Below are positions 11,586 to 39,889 of a DNA stretch of 64,000 bases, piece after piece. Both the position numbers and the translations under genes were made by a program. This stretch comes from Cyanobacteriota bacterium (GTDB taxonomy: Bacteria; Cyanobacteriota; Cyanobacteriia; CACIAM-69d). The stretch is from assembly GCA_022402445.1 (NCBI GenBank), contig JAKRSF010000007.1, positions 124,001 to 188,000 of the forward strand, read 5' to 3'. The notes under the pieces are model-generated. The model saw only the letters and a list, made by a program, of their open reading frames with translations. It did not search any database and was not told where the DNA came from. Numbering within the stretch: the first letter of the stretch is position 1; each line of letters begins with the position of its first letter.

Positions 11586-12722
11586 CTAGGAACCAGGCAT
11601 CTGGAGCGACCACCGGCCAAAGGCGATCGCGCTATAGAGCTGAAACGCAGAGTCCCACAGGGTTTCTTCCCGCCGGAAGAGATTGATGTGGGGCTTTATT
11701 TTGCTGAGTAATTCCGTTTCATCGAGGGCGCTGCTGGCGAAGCCATCAAAATCCTTGAGGTGGGGCGCGTCGGGGAGCTGCTGGGCCAGGTAGGCGACGA
11801 TCGCATTCCAGTGGGTGCGGCGGGTGGGGCGCAGTTGGGTGCTTTTTTCCGCCAGGAACGGCACGGGGGAGAATTGGACGCCGCGATCGAATTGGTAGCT
11901 GCTTTCGCAGAACCGCAGGATCGTGTTGCGTTTCGGCAGGTGTAGATCCATCAGCAGGGCATAGTCCTGGGTATTTTCCCGGCGCACCAGGTTGCCACGG
12001 GCGTCCGTATCGACGACGGATTCAAAAATGGGCACCTGGCCGCTCACCCGCTGGGCTACTTCGGACCATTGGAAGGCGATCGCCCCGAGGCGGCCATCGG
12101 CATTTTGGCAAACCACGGTGGGGCCAGGTTTGATGCCCCGCAAATATTGCACCCGAAACACTTGCGGGCTGTGGAGGGCCGCGATCGCCAGGGTAAAACA
12201 GGGGACATCGCTGCGATTGAGTTCTTCGCCATAGACCTGCAATTCCCCCAACGGCCCGAGGCGATAGAGCCGCCAATGGCGCGCGGGCAGGATCATCCGG
12301 GCGCTGTAGGGATCCAGGTTCAAAATGCGGGCGGCCTGTTGCGCGGCGGCCTTGCGATCGCGATCGCCCAGGGGTTCGAGGACCAAAAGACCGGGTTTTG
12401 CGTTTTGGGGCGTAGCGCGGGCCTGTTCGAGGGCCGCTTGGCGGGACTGTTTTTCCTGATTTTCGAGGCGCTGGAGTCCCTGGCGCGCTTGGCTGAGGAT
12501 TTTGGGGTTGGGATTTTGGGTATTGCGCAGCAGGGTGCGATAGATCGGCTCGGCGATGTGGCCCTTGCCGGACAGTTCATGGAGCCGCGCCGCATAGAGC
12601 TGCACCCACGGATCGTCCCCATGGGTCTTCAGCAGGGGATTTAGTAAGCGGGCCGCACTGCGATATTCCTTGCGCTGGAAGGCGGCGGCGATGCGATCGA
12701 GGTCCGGGGGGTTGGGGTTCAT
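11586..12722 (-). CDS. TPR-like cyanobacterial protein
   Basis: A 378-residue soluble protein. The N-terminal part (about residues 1-90) is helical with TPR-like spacing (AAFQRKEYRSAARLLNPLL, QLYAARLHELSGKGHIAEP, YRTLLRNTQNPNPKILSQA). The larger C-terminal region, from about 120 onward (GLLVLEPLGDRDRKAAAQQA, YSARMILPARHWRLYRLG), is a domain I do not recognise. Start ATG 12722 overlaps the rsmE stop by four bases, indicating translational coupling; longer in-frame starts would run into rsmE. It is the last gene of the six-gene minus-strand run. Confidence 0.65.
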   Translation of the reverse strand: MNPNPPDLDRIAAAFQRKEYRSAARLLNPLLKTHGDDPWVQLYAARLHELSGKGHIAEPIYRTLLRNTQNPNPKILSQARQGLQRLENQEKQSRQAALEQARATPQNAKPGLLVLEPLGDRDRKAAAQQAARILNLDPYSARMILPARHWRLYRLGPLGELQVYGEELNRSDVPCFTLAIAALHSPQVFRVQYLRGIKPGPTVVCQNADGRLGAIAFQWSEVAQRVSGQVPIFESVVDTDARGNLVRRENTQDYALLMDLHLPKRNTILRFCESSYQFDRGVQFSPVPFLAEKSTQLRPTRRTHWNAIVAYLAQQLPDAPHLKDFDGFASSALDETELLSKIKPHINLFRREETLWDSAFQLYSAIAFGRWSLQMPGS

Positions 12723-13537
12723 GGGGCTGACGGCGGTGGGGCGGACGGGGCGGACGGGGCAGAACAACTCCAGGCGGCGGCCACGAGGCTGAGCGCTACT
12801 AAAGGGGCGGTGGCGGCCCGCAGGATGCGATCGCCCAGATGAACGGGCACAAATCCGAAGTTGGTTTGAAAACAGTCCTTTTCGCGATCGCTCCAGCCCC
12901 CCTCCGGTCCAATGGCGATCGCGATCGCGGGAGGATGTTCAGGATTGGTTTCAGCCTTCGCGGCCCCGAGGGCCACCGTCAGCAGATGGTCCGGGCCACC
13001 GCGCGCGACGCACAGCCACCGGCACCAGGGGCGATCCTTTCCAAAGGGCAAATCCGCTAGACAATCCCCCACGCGATCGCTCGGGACGGGGGGCACAATC
13101 ACGGGTAAATCGGGCCGTTCGCACTGTTCCGTGGCCTCCAGGGCAATGCGCCGCCACCGTTCTAATTTGTTGTCGCTCGGTTGCACCAGGCCGCGATCGC
13201 TCAGGACCGGCACGATCCACCCAGTTCCCAGTTCCACCGCCTGCCGCACCACCTCATCGAAGGCGTTGCCCTTGGGGGGGGCGGCCAGGAGCACGATCGG
13301 CGGCAGGGGCGATCGCGGGGCCGGGGCGGGGCTGATCAGGTGGGCGATCGCGCGATCGGCCGGTTCCAATTCCGCAATCCACTGGCCCTGATCGGCGCGG
13401 GGCACCGTCAGCAGCGCCACAAAGCGATCGCCCCCCCGCAGCCGCAGCACCCGATAGAGATAGCGCCCCTGGGCCGGGGTCAGGGCGATCGCGCCGTCGG
13501 CGGTCAGTTGCTCGGGATCAATGGCTAGGCGTTGCAC
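12719..13537 (-). CDS. rsmE: 16S rRNA m3U1498 methyltransferase RsmE
   Basis: SPOUT-fold methyltransferase that makes N3-methyluridine 1498 in 16S rRNA. Start chosen at GTG 13537, giving the family N-terminus (M)QRLAIDPEQ; the frame is open upstream into the preceding gene. Diagnostic segments are RYLYRVLRLRGGDRF, the central AAPPKGNAFDEVVRQAVELG, EATEQCERPDLP, and the SAM-knot IAIGPEGGWSDREKDCF followed by HLGDRILRAATAPLVAL. The C-terminus carries an extra Ser/Ala/Pro tail encoded by a short GGGGCGGAC-like repeat near 12735-12760. It is the fifth gene of the putative operon. Confidence 0.92.
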   Translation of the reverse strand: MQRLAIDPEQLTADGAIALTPAQGRYLYRVLRLRGGDRFVALLTVPRADQGQWIAELEPADRAIAHLISPAPAPRSPLPPIVLLAAPPKGNAFDEVVRQAVELGTGWIVPVLSDRGLVQPSDNKLERWRRIALEATEQCERPDLPVIVPPVPSDRVGDCLADLPFGKDRPWCRWLCVARGGPDHLLTVALGAAKAETNPEHPPAIAIAIGPEGGWSDREKDCFQTNFGFVPVHLGDRILRAATAPLVALSLVAAAWSCSAPSAPSAPPPSAP

Positions 13538-13596
13538 GGGCGGGTTTGGGGACGGGGGGTGATCGATTGTTTCGCCGATTTTTTGGCTAATTTCCT

Positions 13597-15414
13597 CTAG
13601 GATGCCTGATCCGCCGCCGCGAGCAAACAGGCGGCCGACAGGACCACATGGCGATCGCTGGCAAACACCTGGCACGGTTCCACCCAAGCGGCCAATGCCG
13701 GAATTTCCCCCGCCGCGAGCCGCGATCGCGTCGCATCAAAGGCCGGTTGATATTGCCGCAGCCAATCGTCCGCCTCCAGGTAGGCCGCCGTCAGACCGCC
13801 GCGATCGAGCAGCCACAGATCCACGCCATAGGTGCGGATCACCTGGGCCACGGGCCGCAAATCCGGCGCGTATTGGGCCTCGATCAGGGCGAGAACGCGA
13901 TCGCGAAATTCCCGGTAATAGCCCCAGTGGTAAGGGATTGCCGCCTCGGCCCCCACCAAAACCGATCGCCGCGCGAAGGTGGGAATGTTATTGGCCTCAC
14001 CGGACAGGGACGCGATCAACGTTTCCGGCGGCTGCCCCTGCAAAAAGCGGTAGAGTTCCGGGGCGGTGCCGGTGACGTAGCTGGTTTTGGGGAATTTTGA
14101 CGAGGTGAGGGGCTCCACGGTCAGCCCCAGAATGAAGACAGCGGTTAACGTTGCGCCGATCGCGGCCCGCCCCCGAGGCCCCAGCCAGGTTGAACGTTTT
14201 AGGTGCTGCGCCGCCGCCGTCGCCAGGGTGAATAAAACCGCCGCCGCCGCGATCGCGATCGCAATCCGCAGACCGTGCTGGGTGTAGCGACTGGGCAAAT
14301 GCAGCCGAAACAGCAGCCCATGGGCCGTCCCAAAACACAGGAAGCACCCCAGCACCAATTTCGACAACAGCCCCCCCCGCGATCGCCACAGGGCCACCAT
14401 CGGCAGGCGATCGCGCCAGCGGCCCCACAGGAATTGCGGCAGCAGCAGGCCCAACACCATCAGCGGCGGCTCCAGGGGAATTTGAATGCCACTGCGGCCC
14501 CCCGACAGCCAAAAGCGCCCGAAATCGTCATAGAAAAACCGCGATCGCCCATCGGGCAAAAATTCCGGCAGGGTGCGCGCCAACTCCGCATCGATCGTGG
14601 GGCCAAAGGCGGACGAGTCTAGGGCAAAGGGAATCAGCACCACCGTGCAAGTAATCAAAACCCAGACGCTAAAGCTCAAATCGTGCCAGATTTGGGGAAT
14701 TTTGCCGGTTTTCCTTAAATTCCAGAAATGGCCGATGGCTTCCAGGACCGCGATCGCGGCGGTCACCAGCACATAGTGGGGATAGAACCAGCCCAGCAGC
14801 GCGATCGCCCCAACGATGAGAAAGCGTGATCGACGGCCATAGGCAATCAAAATCAGCAAAAAGAGGGGGTTTAAGAACGCCCGCGCCGTCCCAGAGGCCA
14901 AGTCGTCCCGCATCCAGAGATTTTGGGCAAACAGCATCGCCGCGCCGAATGCCGCCGCCGGAACGGGAAATAGGTCAAAACTCAGCACAAAACACAGGAC
15001 CGTCGCCACCGGCCCCAGCACCAGCGGCAGCCACCGGGCCACCGTCAGCGGCTCGATCCCCAGGCCCGCCGCCGCCCCATAGAGCGTCCGAAACCCCAGC
15101 GGGGCCACCGACTGGAAATAGTCCGCGATGCGATCGCCCGGAAACAGCCCCGGATCCAGATAGCGCGCCATCCAGAACAAATGCTGGCGGCCATCGTCCG
15201 GCACGACAAATTCACCATTGCCCCATCGGCCCACCGCGATCGCCGCCCACAGGAGCCCACTCGCCAGGGTCAGGGCCAGCCAAAAGATCCCCGGCCCCGT
15301 GCATAAACGCGGCTGCGGATCTAGCACCCACGCCCATAGGATTTGATCCGAGCCCTTGCGGGGGCGATCGCCGCGATCGCGCTCCTCAGATTGTGGAGAA
15401 AAATCACTAGCCAT
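13597..15414 (-). CDS. Polytopic membrane protein, GT-C-like, paralogue A
   Basis: A 605-residue multi-pass protein with roughly ten or more hydrophobic segments up to about residue 430 and a soluble C-terminal domain. It is paralogous to the product of 17284-19050: both carry an N-terminal loop of the pattern DDxRQHLFWMxRYLDPGLFPG followed by ADYFQSVAP, then MRDDLASGTARAF, and later LHLPSRYTQHGLR, NNIPTFARRSVL and IPYHWGYYREFRDR. The acidic pair in the first periplasmic loop and the topology resemble GT-C glycosyltransferases that use lipid-linked sugars; this is inference. It starts three bases after the GT39-type gene ends. Confidence 0.7.
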   Translation of the reverse strand: MASDFSPQSEERDRGDRPRKGSDQILWAWVLDPQPRLCTGPGIFWLALTLASGLLWAAIAVGRWGNGEFVVPDDGRQHLFWMARYLDPGLFPGDRIADYFQSVAPLGFRTLYGAAAGLGIEPLTVARWLPLVLGPVATVLCFVLSFDLFPVPAAAFGAAMLFAQNLWMRDDLASGTARAFLNPLFLLILIAYGRRSRFLIVGAIALLGWFYPHYVLVTAAIAVLEAIGHFWNLRKTGKIPQIWHDLSFSVWVLITCTVVLIPFALDSSAFGPTIDAELARTLPEFLPDGRSRFFYDDFGRFWLSGGRSGIQIPLEPPLMVLGLLLPQFLWGRWRDRLPMVALWRSRGGLLSKLVLGCFLCFGTAHGLLFRLHLPSRYTQHGLRIAIAIAAAAVLFTLATAAAQHLKRSTWLGPRGRAAIGATLTAVFILGLTVEPLTSSKFPKTSYVTGTAPELYRFLQGQPPETLIASLSGEANNIPTFARRSVLVGAEAAIPYHWGYYREFRDRVLALIEAQYAPDLRPVAQVIRTYGVDLWLLDRGGLTAAYLEADDWLRQYQPAFDATRSRLAAGEIPALAAWVEPCQVFASDRHVVLSAACLLAAADQAS

Positions 15415-15417
15415 GGC

Positions 15418-17178
15418 CTAGGCATCCCGCCGCAGCACTTCCACCAACTGCCCCGGCCCGTGGCGCACCTCCAGGGGCCAACCGGCGGCCTGCAACCCCT
15501 CCATCAACTCCCGATAGGGCTGATAGAGAAAAATGCGATCAAACCCCTCCGGAAACTGCTCCGGCACGTAGGGCTTTTCCAGCAGCAGAAAACGCACGCG
15601 ATCGCCCGATCCTTGCGATTTCCGGGAATTTCCCTGGGAGTTGGCCTGAGCATTGGCCGTTTTTTGCCCCTCCCTCGGGTACCGCAGCAGTTCCGCACTC
15701 AGGCCCATGAGCCGCGTCGCCTTATCCGTCGCCGCCAGGATCAAGGGTTGCTCAGCTTCCTGGACGATCGCCGCCACCTCCGGCTCATAGTAGCTGCTGT
15801 ATTTCGTCCAACTGGTGGCCGATCCATGGCCCGCGATCGCCGTCCCCAGCCCCGCGATCGCGATCGCCAGGGCCAGCAGCCCCCCCCAGGGCACCGAAAA
15901 TCCCCGCTGAATCCGCAGCGACGTCCCCGACAGATAGCGGCGATCGCCCGCCAGCCAATGGGCCACCGCAAACGCCACCAGCAGATATAGCCCCACATAG
16001 GCCGGCATCAGGAACCGCGCCACCGTCGCCCGCTGGCCCCCATCCACCAAATCCGGCAGCCACAGACACAGCCACGGCACCAGGGTCAGGCAAGTAATAA
16101 AAGGCCGCGCCACGCCGATCGCCCGGACCCACAGGCCAAAAAAGCTCAGGGCCACCAGCACCACCGTCGGCACCACCGCCAGCAGCCAGCCCCCCCACCC
16201 CAGGGCGATCGCATCGCGGCCCGTCTGCACATCCACCAGGCGATCGCCATAGAACGGCTGCAAATCAATAAACGGCACCGTCAGCACCAGCGCCCACCGC
16301 TGAAATAACGATCCCCATTCGGGCGATCGCGACAGCCACCCCATGCCATCGAAATGGAGCAAATACACCACAATCCACGGCACATAGGCCGCCAACGCCG
16401 CCGCGATCGCCACCAAAAACTGCGCGATCGCCGGGGTCCAGCGCAGGCCATTGACCCACACCATAAACACCCCATGGGCCAGCACCCCATAGGCAAACAG
16501 CGGATGCACATACAGCCCCACCGCCACCGACAGCCCATAGAGCCCCCAGGGCACCACCGCACTGCGCCACTTGCGCCGCCCCTCTAGCCGCACCGCCCGC
16601 AGCAGCAGCGCACTGGCCACCGCCACGGCCACCGTCAGCAGGCTATATTCCCGCGCCTCCTGGGCATACAAAATCTGCACCGGCGACACCGCCATCAACC
16701 CCGTCGCCACGATCGCCACCGGCAACGAATGGAACAGCTCCCACGCCAGCCACGCGATCGCCGGGAGGGCCAACAAACTCAGGGCCGCCGCCGTCCACCG
16801 GGCCGCCGCGATCGGATCCGGCCACACCGCCAGCACCGCCCGCGCCAGCAGGTAATAGGCCGGTGGATGCTGGGGATTGTCCGTCGCCAGGGCCACCACC
16901 ACGTCAACACCGCCAAGGGGGGCGCGATCGCGGCGGGGCTGCCAATAGGCCAACAGATCCGTCGGGCGCAGCAGATCCGGCGCACGGGGGGCCGAAACGC
17001 GATCGGTCAAGGCTTGGGTCACCTCTTCCTTGCCATAGCCCGCAATCCGCAGGGCACTGTGGACCTCATCGATCCAAAACACTTTTCCGTCCAGATGGGT
17101 CAGGCGCAGGGTGGACCCCACCGCCACCAGCACAATCAAAATGGGGATCGCCAGCCGAGACGCAAAGCGGGAAACCAT
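15418..17178 (-). CDS. GT39/ArnT-type membrane glycosyltransferase
   Basis: A 586-residue polytopic GT-C glycosyltransferase. The N-terminal segment LDGKVFWIDEVHSALRI has the catalytic acidic residues of the first periplasmic loop, and NPQHPPAYYLLARAVLAVW is the typical second-loop/HPP motif of this superfamily. Many transmembrane segments follow to about residue 450, then a small soluble C-terminal domain. Such enzymes transfer sugars from polyprenyl-phosphate donors to lipids or proteins on the outer face of the membrane. It lies between two paralogous GT-C-like genes with almost no spacing, so the three probably act together. The substrate is unknown. Confidence 0.78.
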   Translation of the reverse strand: MVSRFASRLAIPILIVLVAVGSTLRLTHLDGKVFWIDEVHSALRIAGYGKEEVTQALTDRVSAPRAPDLLRPTDLLAYWQPRRDRAPLGGVDVVVALATDNPQHPPAYYLLARAVLAVWPDPIAAARWTAAALSLLALPAIAWLAWELFHSLPVAIVATGLMAVSPVQILYAQEAREYSLLTVAVAVASALLLRAVRLEGRRKWRSAVVPWGLYGLSVAVGLYVHPLFAYGVLAHGVFMVWVNGLRWTPAIAQFLVAIAAALAAYVPWIVVYLLHFDGMGWLSRSPEWGSLFQRWALVLTVPFIDLQPFYGDRLVDVQTGRDAIALGWGGWLLAVVPTVVLVALSFFGLWVRAIGVARPFITCLTLVPWLCLWLPDLVDGGQRATVARFLMPAYVGLYLLVAFAVAHWLAGDRRYLSGTSLRIQRGFSVPWGGLLALAIAIAGLGTAIAGHGSATSWTKYSSYYEPEVAAIVQEAEQPLILAATDKATRLMGLSAELLRYPREGQKTANAQANSQGNSRKSQGSGDRVRFLLLEKPYVPEQFPEGFDRIFLYQPYRELMEGLQAAGWPLEVRHGPGQLVEVLRRDA

Positions 17179-17283
17179 AGCAGCAGCCGCCTGCGGACGG
17201 CACGAGGAGCAACGGAAAGGCCAAGGGAAACGTCGGGGGAAACGGACGCAGCCAGGGCACTAGCCTAGACCATCGCCACGGCC

Positions 17284-19050
17284 CTAGGGGGGTTGACCCT
17301 GGGGGGCCGCCGCCGCGAGTTGGGTGAGGCAGCTTCCGTCTAGGACTTGGAAACCGGAGCCCTGGAAGACGATGCAGGGGGCCGCGATCGCGTTCGCCAG
17401 GGTCGGACCGGGGGGCGTTTGGAGGTGGGCGATCGCGCGATCGAAGGCCGGTTGAAATTGGGCAAACCAGCGATTCTCGCGCATCCACGATCCCTCCGCC
17501 CGCAGGTAGGGCAAGGTGAAGGTTTCCGCGTCCAGCAGCCAAAAATCCACCCCATAGCGCTCCTGAAAGGCGGCCACGGCCCCGAGATCTGGGCTGTAGA
17601 GGGCTTCTAGGGTGGCGGCGACGCGATCGCGGAATTGTGCGTAATAGCCCCAATGGTAAGGAATGCCGTATTCCCGGGCGCTGAGGACCGAGCGGCGGGC
17701 AAAGGTGGGCACATTGTCCAGCTCATCGGACATGCCCGCGATCACCGCATCCTCCGGCAGGGCGGCCAAGAATTCATAGACCGCCGGGGCGCGCCCCCCC
17801 AGATATTGCCCATTGGGGAAGCGGCCCAGACTGAAGGGGTACAGCAGCACCGCCGCCGCCAGGAGCACCGGGAGCGATCGCGCCGCCCACCGCCACTTGC
17901 CCGCCGCCCGATGGCCCAGCATTTCCGCACCAACACCCCAGACCAACGCCGCCGCGATCGGCATCAGGATCATGGTGCCGTATTGGGTGTAGCGCCCCGG
18001 CAGGTGCAGCCGGAACAGGACCAGATGGGCCATGCCAAAACACAGCAGCGATCCTAAAATCCATTGCCCCAACAGGGCCAGCCCCGGTCCCGCCGTCGCC
18101 AGAATCGACCAGCGCCGCCGGGTGGCCGCGATCGCGGGGAGGACCACCGCCGCAATCAGGGTAACGGGGGTAAAAATCGCCTTGGGCAACAGACTACTGC
18201 GGTGACTCATGAGCCAATAGGCCGCCCAATCGTCCCGGAAAAAGACCGCCCGCCCGCCGCTGACAAACTCCGGCAGCGATCGCGCCTGCTCGACACTGAT
18301 CACGGGGCCGTAGGCGGACGACTGCGATTTGTAAAGGCACAGGGTCATCACCCCCAGGCCCACCCCCGCCAACGCCAGCCGCAGGGATTTCAGATTTTCG
18401 GGAGCGCGATCGCCCCGTCCATCGCCTCGATAGCGCCCATAGGCCAACATCGCCGCCCGCACCGTCAGGGTCGCCACCGCCACCAGCACATATTGCGGAT
18501 AGAACAGGCCCAACAGGGCGATCGCCCCGAGGGTCAGGGGCCAGGACGATCGCAGCACCCCATCGAGGAAGGCCAAAAATAGGGGAAAGACAAAGGCGCG
18601 GGGGGTGGCCGACGCCAGATCATCGCGGATCCACAGGCTGATATTGAGCTGCGTCGCCGCCAGAAACCCCAGCCACGGCACCGGCGCGATCGCGATCGCC
18701 ACCCGAAAGGCCAGCACCGTCGTGATCAGCCCCAGCAGCGCAGGCATCCACGCCCCCACCACCAGCGGATCGATGCCCACCTGCGCCGGGAGCCAATAGA
18801 GCAGTTGATAGCCCCAGGGAGCCACCGATTGAAAATAGTCCGCCAGCAGATCCCCCGGAAATAGGCCCGGATCCAGGTAGCGCCGCATCCAAAACAGGTG
18901 CTGCCGCGCATCGTCCTGGACCACGTAAGTTCCCGCCAGCGCCGCCGTCACCGAGGCCCAGCCGCACGCGATCGCGAAACCAACCGCCAGCCCCAGCCAG
19001 AGCCCCGTGGCCAGCCGCGATCGCCCCAGAAAGCGCCCCCTAGCTTCCAT
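17284..19050 (-). CDS. Polytopic membrane protein, GT-C-like, paralogue B
   Basis: A 588-residue relative of the protein encoded at 13597-15414. Shared blocks include DDARQHLFWMRRYLDPGLFP, ADYFQSVAPWGYQLLYWLP, IRDDLASATPRAF, GLFYPQYVL, LHLPGRYTQYG, NVPTFARRSVLSAREYGIPY and HWGYYAQFRDRV. About eleven hydrophobic segments precede a soluble C-terminal part ending near residue 580. The start at 19050 overlaps the end of the methyltransferase gene by 11 bases. The pair probably arose by duplication around, or before insertion of, the GT39-type gene. The catalytic role is inferred from topology only. Confidence 0.7.
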   Translation of the reverse strand: MEARGRFLGRSRLATGLWLGLAVGFAIACGWASVTAALAGTYVVQDDARQHLFWMRRYLDPGLFPGDLLADYFQSVAPWGYQLLYWLPAQVGIDPLVVGAWMPALLGLITTVLAFRVAIAIAPVPWLGFLAATQLNISLWIRDDLASATPRAFVFPLFLAFLDGVLRSSWPLTLGAIALLGLFYPQYVLVAVATLTVRAAMLAYGRYRGDGRGDRAPENLKSLRLALAGVGLGVMTLCLYKSQSSAYGPVISVEQARSLPEFVSGGRAVFFRDDWAAYWLMSHRSSLLPKAIFTPVTLIAAVVLPAIAATRRRWSILATAGPGLALLGQWILGSLLCFGMAHLVLFRLHLPGRYTQYGTMILMPIAAALVWGVGAEMLGHRAAGKWRWAARSLPVLLAAAVLLYPFSLGRFPNGQYLGGRAPAVYEFLAALPEDAVIAGMSDELDNVPTFARRSVLSAREYGIPYHWGYYAQFRDRVAATLEALYSPDLGAVAAFQERYGVDFWLLDAETFTLPYLRAEGSWMRENRWFAQFQPAFDRAIAHLQTPPGPTLANAIAAPCIVFQGSGFQVLDGSCLTQLAAAAPQGQPP

Positions 19051-20068
19051 GGGCGGCCCCGGTGCGGGCGATCAGCGTCCGGTGGCGCGGCGTATTGAAC
19101 TGCACCGTCGGCGTTTCAAACCCCGCCAGGGTAAAGGCTTTGGGCAAATCCAAACAAAAATATTCGTCCAGATAGGGCTCCGTGCTCTTGAGCAGCGTGA
19201 ACACGAAGGGGGGCATTTTGGCGATTGCGCCGGACTGGGGATTCATGTCCATGATGCTCAGGACGCCCCCCGGTTTGAGCAGCCGCCGCGCCTCTTGCAA
19301 CACCGCGATCGCGGCGGTCTGGGGCAACTCATGGAACACCAAACAAACGGACACCCAATCAAATTGGCCCGTGGGCAACCCCGTCGCCTCCGCCGCCCCG
19401 TGGACCCAGTGGGGGCGCGTTTGGTGGCGATTCATGGGGCTGTGGTGGGTGTTGTAGTCCGCGATCGCCAGGAAGTGGGGCGACAGATCCACGCCGGTTA
19501 ATTGCGCCTCGGGGAACGTGTCCTGGAGCGCAAAGGTGCTCATTCCCACCCCGCAGCCGAGATCCACCGCCGTGCGGATCGCCGTCGGGTCGATGCCCTG
19601 GGCCGTCAAATAATCGCGCACCAGATCGTGGTAGCTGCGGCGCAGTTGGTCATCCCCATCGAGGCGGGTGTCGCCCCAGATTTTGGCATGGACCGATCGC
19701 GCCGCCGCCTCCACCTCCACCGCAGGCGTCCAGCCCAGATTGCCCTCGTCGTAGGCGTGGAACGAGGTGAGGTAATAGGACGGATAGGTCAAGTTTGGAT
19801 TTTCTAGCCGCGATCGCGCCTCGGCGATCGCCCCCGTGCCCTCCGTTTGATCCTGTAGCTGGGTCGCCATCGTCCGCCAGGGCACCCCAATGGCTTCGGC
19901 GCGATCAACCATCATTTGCCGCGCCTTACCCTTAAACACTTTTGCCAACGGCGCGATCGCCAACAGACCATTAATCAACGTATTGAGCAGCGCCCCCCCC
20001 GAGCCCCCCTGGGCAATGGGCAGCGGCACGGTGGGAATCGCAACGGAGCCAGAAACGGGAGCGGCCAT
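19040..20068 (-). CDS. Class I SAM-dependent methyltransferase
   Basis: A 342-residue methyltransferase. SAM motif I is AVDLGCGVGMSTFAL at about residues 165-179, with LTGVDLSPHFLAIA and later FDWVSVCLVFHELP and LKPGGVLSIMDMNPQSG as further Rossmann blocks. The N-terminal 100 residues include a hydrophobic stretch (LLNTLINGLLAIAPLAKVF), perhaps a membrane association helix. ATG at 20068 is a clear start. It is the first gene of the run that continues through the three membrane glycosyltransferase-like genes. It could methylate a lipid or sugar product of that pathway, but this is inferred from position. Confidence 0.85.
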   Translation of the reverse strand: MAAPVSGSVAIPTVPLPIAQGGSGGALLNTLINGLLAIAPLAKVFKGKARQMMVDRAEAIGVPWRTMATQLQDQTEGTGAIAEARSRLENPNLTYPSYYLTSFHAYDEGNLGWTPAVEVEAAARSVHAKIWGDTRLDGDDQLRRSYHDLVRDYLTAQGIDPTAIRTAVDLGCGVGMSTFALQDTFPEAQLTGVDLSPHFLAIADYNTHHSPMNRHQTRPHWVHGAAEATGLPTGQFDWVSVCLVFHELPQTAAIAVLQEARRLLKPGGVLSIMDMNPQSGAIAKMPPFVFTLLKSTEPYLDEYFCLDLPKAFTLAGFETPTVQFNTPRHRTLIARTGAAHGS

Positions 20069-38866: not shown

Positions 38867-39889
38867 CTAGCGATCGCGGCCAGCCACCGGCCCCGCAGGG
38901 GGCGCAGAGCGATGGGCCAGGGTACTGCGGAGCCGTTGATAGCGACTGCGGGCCAGATCGGCGCGGCGGGCCCGTAGCTGGATTTCCTCCAGAAGTTTCC
39001 GGTTCACGGCGATCATGTCCCCCACCAACCCCAGGATCCAAAGCTGAATGCCCGCCAGCAGCAAAATCGCCGCCAGGATCAAACTGGGCACATGGGCGCG
39101 ATCGGTCCCCATGAAATACAGCAGCAGCCAGCGCACCGACAGCAGCATCCCGCAGCCAAAGGGCAACGACCCCAGCAGCAGAAAAAACCGCAGGGGTTTA
39201 TAGGCCATAAAAATCCGCAGGATCGTAAACATCGAGCGGCGCACATAGGCCGGAATGCTCTTGACCAGGCGCGAGGGCCGCAGGTAGCCGTTGGTGCGGA
39301 TGGGCACCCAGGTGATCGACAGGCCCTTTTGGCCCGCCTGGATGATGGTTTCTAGGGTGTAGGTGTACTCATTAAACACATTGAGCCGGAGGGCCGCGTG
39401 GTGGGTCATGGCCCGGAAACCGCTGGGGGCGTCGGGGATGGTGGTGCCGCTGGCGAGGCGCACGACGGAACTGCCGAGGGCCTGTAGGAGTTTTTTGGCG
39501 GGGGAAAAGTCCTGGATGTCCTGGATGGGCCGCGCGCCGATGACGATTTCCGCGTCGCCATCGAGGATGGGCTGGATCAGTTTGGGGATGTCGGCGGCGC
39601 AGTATTGGTTGTCGGCGTCGGTGTTGACAATGATGTCGGCCCCGGCGTGGAGGCAGGCGTCGAGGCCGGCCATGAATGCCCTGGCGAGCCCTTGGTTGTA
39701 GGGCAGACGGACGATGTGATCGACCCCGCAGGCTTTGGCGACTTCGGCGGTGCGATCGCGGCTGCCGTCATCAATCACGAGCCATTCCAGTTCATCAATG
39801 CCGGGGAGGCGGCGGGGCAGTTCCGCCAGGGTGATGCCGAGGGTGGCCTCTTCGTTGTAGCAGGGGATTTGGATAATCAGTTTGGTCAT
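38867..39889 (-). CDS. Family 2 glycosyltransferase, dolichyl/polyprenyl-phosphate sugar synthase type
   Basis: A 340-residue GT2 enzyme with the N-terminus IIQIPCYNEEATLGITLAEL, the nucleotide-binding LVIDDGSRDRTAEVA and the metal site VNTDADNQYCAADIP. Two hydrophobic segments at about residues 232-255 and 266-292 anchor the C-terminus. This layout resembles polyprenyl-phosphate mannose/glucose synthases (DPM1/GtrB type) that supply lipid-linked sugars to GT-C enzymes. Such enzymes could feed the membrane glycosyltransferases at 13597-19050, but this is speculative. The start is ATG 39889. Confidence 0.86.
   Translation of the reverse strand: MTKLIIQIPCYNEEATLGITLAELPRRLPGIDELEWLVIDDGSRDRTAEVAKACGVDHIVRLPYNQGLARAFMAGLDACLHAGADIIVNTDADNQYCAADIPKLIQPILDGDAEIVIGARPIQDIQDFSPAKKLLQALGSSVVRLASGTTIPDAPSGFRAMTHHAALRLNVFNEYTYTLETIIQAGQKGLSITWVPIRTNGYLRPSRLVKSIPAYVRRSMFTILRIFMAYKPLRFFLLLGSLPFGCGMLLSVRWLLLYFMGTDRAHVPSLILAAILLLAGIQLWILGLVGDMIAVNRKLLEEIQLRARRADLARSRYQRLRSTLAHRSAPPAGPVAGRDR

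Follow-up and report, generated by a model that had tools for sequence, protein, structure and literature searches.

The window, a 64,000-nucleotide stretch of a cyanobacterial genome, contains a run of six open reading frames (ORFs) in which two related membrane proteins flank a GT39-type enzyme. What do these proteins do, and which of the genes around them share their task? The original prediction tied all six genes, together with a more distant GT2 enzyme, to a pathway for methylated surface glycans or glycolipids. The six ORFs lie on the minus strand at the positions first reported, and we refer to the genes as follows:

19040-20068, - strand: MT, class I SAM methyltransferase, upstream of A; linkage not conserved
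17284-19050, - strand: paralogue A, polytopic protein of 588 aa with a predicted GT-C fold and an extracytoplasmic-type C-terminal domain (about residues 417-580)
15418-17178, - strand: P, GT-C enzyme of the PMT_2 (GT39/GT83) type, between A and B
13597-15414, - strand: paralogue B, 605 aa, A family, 43% identity to A
12719-13687, - strand: rsmE, 16S rRNA (U1498-N3)-methyltransferase; linkage not conserved
11586-12767, - strand: TPR-like protein, a neighbour; linkage not conserved
38867-39889, - strand: GT2, DPM synthase/ArnC/GtrB-like, predicted polyprenyl-phosphate-sugar synthase

MT and A overlap by 11 bp, A and P are separated by 105 bp, and P and B by 3 bp. The rsmE and TPR overlaps are long because the ORF list used TTG starts. 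The rsmE ORF matched NCBIfam NF008697 (3.6e-58) with homology from residue 52 on, so the true start of rsmE is probably further downstream.

A and B are old paralogues of a family outside Pfam and NCBIfam

Aligned over 586 columns, A and B were 43% identical (E 5e-132), and both carry all four of the long unusual motifs that had drawn attention to them (RYLDPGLFPGD, ADYFQSVAP, RRSVL and HWGYY). They are true paralogues, far above chance, and two more copies of the family are found in the same genome on contigs C11 and C13. When 147 sequences were placed in a FastTree phylogeny, A and B were not sisters: A fell among A-family genes from its own taxonomic family and from Limnothrix (support 0.985), and B grouped with others (0.96). 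We conclude that the pair did not arise by a recent tandem duplication and that the A-P-B arrangement is built of old paralogues.

Neither A nor B matched a Pfam or NCBIfam family, which agrees with the claim that they lie outside any named family, and domain and structure searches produced no match to an established unrelated family. For the 59 members of alignment A1 (57 sequences left after filtering by 4-mer redundancy and length, together with A and B), the Pfam and NCBIfam families listed, 25 at most per table, were scattered matches such as Mannosyl_trans4 (E 0.025, 1/59). Searching the PDB by sequence with alignments A1 and A4 yielded no match, nor did phage records, and a viral fold library gave one match below 1e-3, to an unnamed entry. 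A literature search, with most subscription journals outside it, found no description of the A family or of the gene set discussed below, which is weak evidence of novelty.

The family was present in 32 of 59 sampled genomes of relatives, and the genomes of this set that lack it are often small. In an even draw of 386 genomes from the phylum, at least 48 carried it; three candidates were scored per genome, so this count and the copy numbers are lower bounds. G002 and G004 had up to 9 match rows, some of which are pieces of one gene, and G398, a genome from a different class of the phylum, gave a weak match (4e-13). Named cyanobacterial genomes of the GTDB collection contributed 75 A loci, retrieved by exact peptides of paralogue A and hence biased to close relatives, from genera that include Okeania, Trichodesmium, Laspinema, Microcoleus, Kamptonema, Coleofasciculus, Leptolyngbya and Limnothrix. 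The single homologue seen outside the phylum is on a Phyllobacterium plasmid. That copy is split into two ORFs in different frames (L130:11911-13660), an apparent frameshift that could reflect a pseudogene or a sequencing error.

The predicted fold of A is that of GT-C glycosyltransferases

The AlphaFold2 model of A, made from 59 sequences, had a pLDDT of 93.5 and a pTM of 0.93, and contained 11 long helices as counted by hand, the first of which ends at residue 37. Foldseek matched the model to STT3 (E 3.9e-8). With VIA-align, STT3 (Z 19.9, 469 residues, rmsd 4.7) and Pmt4 (Z 19.8, 357 residues, rmsd 4.4) were the closest structures, and DPY19 (Z 17.1), AftA (16.9) and ArnT (14.8) also matched; identity to the solved GT-C enzymes was only about 8-17%. 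We counted structures within 1 Z as ties, and by this measure the fold cannot choose between STT3 and PMT for A. Residues 417-573 alone matched the soluble domain of AglB (3vu0; Z 9.5, rmsd 2.8, 128 aligned). The likeness to solved GT-C enzymes extends over most of the chain in both A and P, in line with the proposal that duplicated GT-C-like proteins surround a GT39-type enzyme.

GT-C enzymes carry their catalytic Asp between the first and second long helices. The corresponding stretch of A holds the RYLDPGLFPGD and ADYFQSVAP motifs, and its first extracytoplasmic loop, after TM1, contains D46 and D47. Across the family, D47 was conserved in 142/143 sequences and D46 in 136/143; R353 was Arg in 146/147, C559 was Cys in 143/144, and C574 was conserved in 142/143. 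R49, W54, D67 and P351 were also near-invariant across up to 147 sequences. Near-invariance of D47, R353, C559 and C574 is what one would expect if the enzyme is active and has an extracytoplasmic disulfide. D47, just after TM helix 1, is a candidate catalytic residue, and C559 and C574 would form the disulfide. Since the modelled fold is closest to STT3 and Pmt4, A and B are probably lipid-linked-sugar transferases that act outside the cytoplasm.

P is the most frequent neighbour of the A family

Against PMT_2 (PF13231), P scored 24.4 bits as an ORF, for a cut-off of 26.1, and 28.6 bits, above the cut-off, in the genome search, where the entire 4.08-Mb genome had 8 matches to this model. The predicted structure of P (pLDDT 86.4) has a GT-C fold, matching AglB (Z 28.9, rmsd 6.4, 423 aligned) and ArnT (Z 25.1). 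W35, D37 and E38 were invariant in the 27 aligned sequences (alignment A2, 26 neighbour proteins plus P). Profile comparison of A1 with P gave a probability of 7.6%, and no homology between them was found.

We clustered the ORFs of the 75 named loci and found P to be the sole family besides A in many of them (29); the next, F, occurred in 12. Linkage counts used 74 loci (L034-L107), leaving out the fragment L108. P was near A in 29 of the 74, in many genera and codirectionally as well as divergently: it was within 3 kb in 18 of the 40 loci with both flanks of at least 3 kb and in 11 of the 34 with short flanks. Other genes within 3 kb of A in the 40 full-flank loci were F (4), DUF6798 proteins (2) and a tandem A (7). 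No P, F, tandem A or scored DUF6798 type was nearby in 33 of the 74 loci, a count in which later-found DUF6798 variants are unscored. The A-P-A order recurs in G058, and relatives of P are also found without A, as on contig C9. Separately, 10 of the A loci compared had a protein of another PMT_2-type family than that of P (e.g. L175:5055-6587, L053:4607-6151, L058:2475-4016); in G040 it sits between F and A.

The original prediction named conservation of the gene order as a check; the order was kept for the A-P pair. The six-gene run was rejected as a conserved unit: relatives of MT, rsmE and the TPR-like gene (E 1e-15) were beside no other A-family member among the loci compared, many with flanks of about 1.5 to 8 kb, and matched solely in the window itself and in L001/L002, which are copies of it. 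Its sequence marks rsmE as a standard 16S rRNA methyltransferase. With no conserved linkage of MT to the family either, a methylation step in the pathway is not supported. As far as tested, the three genes look like bystanders.

Several A loci had further neighbours. Large DUF6798-type (PF20604) membrane proteins were observed beside F and P (L078:6240-7922, L058:525-2219, L090:4064-5743) and are a possible further membrane component. By hhalign, A and DUF6798 had a probability of 0.8% against a profile of 5 near-identical sequences, so there is no significant profile similarity. The model behind the linkage counts, from 5 near-identical proteins, misses variants found later; a DUF6798 search matched nothing in the window's genome or in the control genomes, which does not show absence. 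The A copy on contig C13 (L140:5967-10628, G000) is convergent with lptA/lptB/lptF-G-like LPS-export genes, and an lptF neighbour was seen at no other A locus compared. On a plasmid of Planktothrix agardhii NIES-204 (L129:1-15862), A and P homologues lie at the end of a polyketide-synthase cluster that also has a polyketide-cyclase-like protein, a GT4 and an aminotransferase. Each of these two contexts is a single case and gives a hint of an acceptor.

GT2, X and F co-occur with the A family

The Phyllobacterium plasmid carries, head to tail, a GT2, a protein of 528 aa (X), a protein with an LPG_synthase_TM domain (F) and the A homologue. Its GT2 is 58% identical over 314 residues to that of the window, which in the PDB is related to dolichol-phosphate mannose synthase, ArnC and sll0501, the last of which we take to be GtrB-like. 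F matches LPG_synthase_TM and TIGR00374 ("flippase-like") and had no match in the PDB. X, about 530 aa long, adjoins F in cyanobacteria and in Phyllobacterium (L158:1061-3797, L130:9390-11914). It belongs to no Pfam or NCBIfam family, with only weak matches to Pec_lyase (2/15) and the heparinase N-terminus (1/15) at E of about 0.03; a toroid lyase or epimerase would be our guess. The window's genome has X and F side by side on contig C13, with 68% and 69% identity to X and F of L078.

We then compared the 59 genomes with and without the A family. At E-value limits that we chose ourselves (X 1e-10, F 1e-10, GT2 1e-40), 23 of the 32 A-positive genomes had GT2, 22 had X and 24 had F, against 0 of the 27 A-negative genomes for each gene (Fisher, 2e-9, 8e-9 and 5e-10). 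These genomes are related and the counts are phylogenetically non-independent; counted by taxonomic family, the values were 7e-5 for GT2, 3e-4 for X and 7e-5 for F. Contiguous runs occurred as GT2-X-F-PMT_2-A in G040, GT2-F-A in G029 and G043, GT2-A with X-F further on in G017, and GT2-X-F in G020 and G036. The predicted synthase is encoded with the GT-C protein in G017, G029, G040, G043 and Phyllobacterium; in the window's genome GT2 is 19.8 kb from A and X-F is on a different contig.

In most genomes GT2, X, F and A are scattered. From coordinates, 12 of the 22 genomes with both X and F had the two within 5 kb of each other, and 7 of 23 had GT2 at most 5 kb from X or F; counted by eye, only 5 of 24 genomes had A that close to any of GT2, X and F. 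Eight of the 32 A-positive genomes had none of the three, which indicates that A can use another donor supplier or that the genes were missed. The suggestion that the GT2 at 38867 supplies the donor gains from its restriction to A-family genomes (23/32 vs 0/27) and from the operons in relatives, and we conclude that it is likely the donor supplier for the A family. With GT2, X and F the finding is wider than originally proposed; with the three bystander genes removed, it is narrower.

A proposed pathway and its alternatives

One published account (PMC11127046) describes three-component systems that attach side chains once polymerisation is complete, by means of a polyprenyl-phosphate-sugar synthase, a flippase and a GT-C enzyme. 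Systems of this GtrABC type, among them the GT136 pentofuranose systems covered there, resemble the present set in that synthase, putative flippase and GT-C enzyme are encoded together, and our GT2 belongs to the DPM/ArnC/GtrB kind. The present set differs in that its GT-C family has no Pfam or NCBIfam model, F is an LPG_synthase_TM/TIGR00374-type protein instead of a GtrA or MATE one, and there are an extra conserved protein, X, and a second GT-C enzyme, P. We favor the interpretation, with a probability of about 0.65, that A and B represent an undescribed GT-C family in an extracytoplasmic glycosylation pathway of this three-component type. By homology, GT2 would charge polyprenyl phosphate with a sugar taken from a nucleotide sugar at the cytoplasmic face, and the flippase-like F (contig C13) would help the lipid-linked sugar outward. 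A and B, through Asp47, and P, through its Asp-Glu motif, would then hand polyprenyl-P-linked sugars on to an acceptor at the opposite face of the membrane, presumably contributing to one product; for this step the fold comes from structure prediction and the transferase activity is what such a fold would suggest. The acceptor is most likely a surface polysaccharide or a glycolipid.

The nearest folds to A, including its C-terminal domain, are enzymes that modify proteins (STT3/AglB/PglB of GT66, and Pmt4), and several paralogues per genome could mean several acceptors. A and B could accordingly be OST/PMT-like glycosyltransferases of secreted or membrane proteins, for which we see a small but real chance. 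GT-C fold likeness, however, cannot tell acceptors apart. STT3/PglB/AglB enzymes have 13 helices and use WWDYG as the acceptor motif, whereas the model of A has 11 long helices, identity to them is about 11%, and WWDYG is absent from A, B and the A1 consensus. The STT3 family model was matched by neither A nor B, the Pfam families listed for the 59 A1 members did not include STT3, its model (PF02516) had no match in the window's genome, and no lipid-linked-oligosaccharide assembly cluster was seen. PMT/ArnT enzymes (GT39, GT83; PMT_2) have the GT-C fold in common with A, and P is of the PMT_2 kind, but PF13231 matched neither A nor B. That A and P instead glycosylate a membrane or polyketide-derived lipid is an unlikely reading; it would fit the Planktothrix plasmid, but the polyketide context was seen once and clustering revealed no lipid or polyketide family common to many A loci.

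Genome compaction could also have brought A, B and P together without any related function, with GT2, X and F co-occurring through shared ancestry among cyanobacteria with larger genomes. The often small size of family-less genomes, the non-independence of the counts and the lack of linkage of most A copies to GT2, X or F are in keeping with this. We nevertheless find it quite improbable, because 29 of 74 loci, from many genera, have P close to A, in both orientations, GT2-X-F-A stand together in Phyllobacterium, a member of another phylum, and the association holds when counted by taxonomic family. Several copies per genome and split ORFs in relatives (L078, L107, L130) might suggest that A and B are catalytically dead, serving as carrier-binding or regulatory subunits. 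Near-invariant D47, R49, D67, R353 and paired cysteines in up to 147 sequences make this very hard to credit.

Taken together, we return to A and B as transferases of a three-component-type pathway, in which the A/B GT-C family is probably what is new, the kind of pathway being already known and the function predicted. Tentatively, and at clearly less than even odds, GT2, X, the non-GtrA flippase-like F, an OST-like A family expanded into several paralogues, and P may form an unnamed machine. It would be common to many cyanobacteria of filamentous type and to at least one alphaproteobacterium, and would make a surface glycoconjugate to which genes have yet to be assigned, perhaps a glycoprotein modified by a bacterial branch of the STT3 kind.

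Implications for cyanobacterial surfaces

Sheaths, exopolysaccharides and surface glycoconjugates of cyanobacteria shape mats, blooms and gliding. To our knowledge, few late extracytoplasmic sugar-transfer steps in cyanobacteria have known genes. The analysis adds a GT-C family outside the Pfam and NCBIfam copies searched and, in X, an unclassified conserved partner. GT2, X, F, the A family and P would give cyanobacterial surface glycosylation a defined gene set with a testable Asp.
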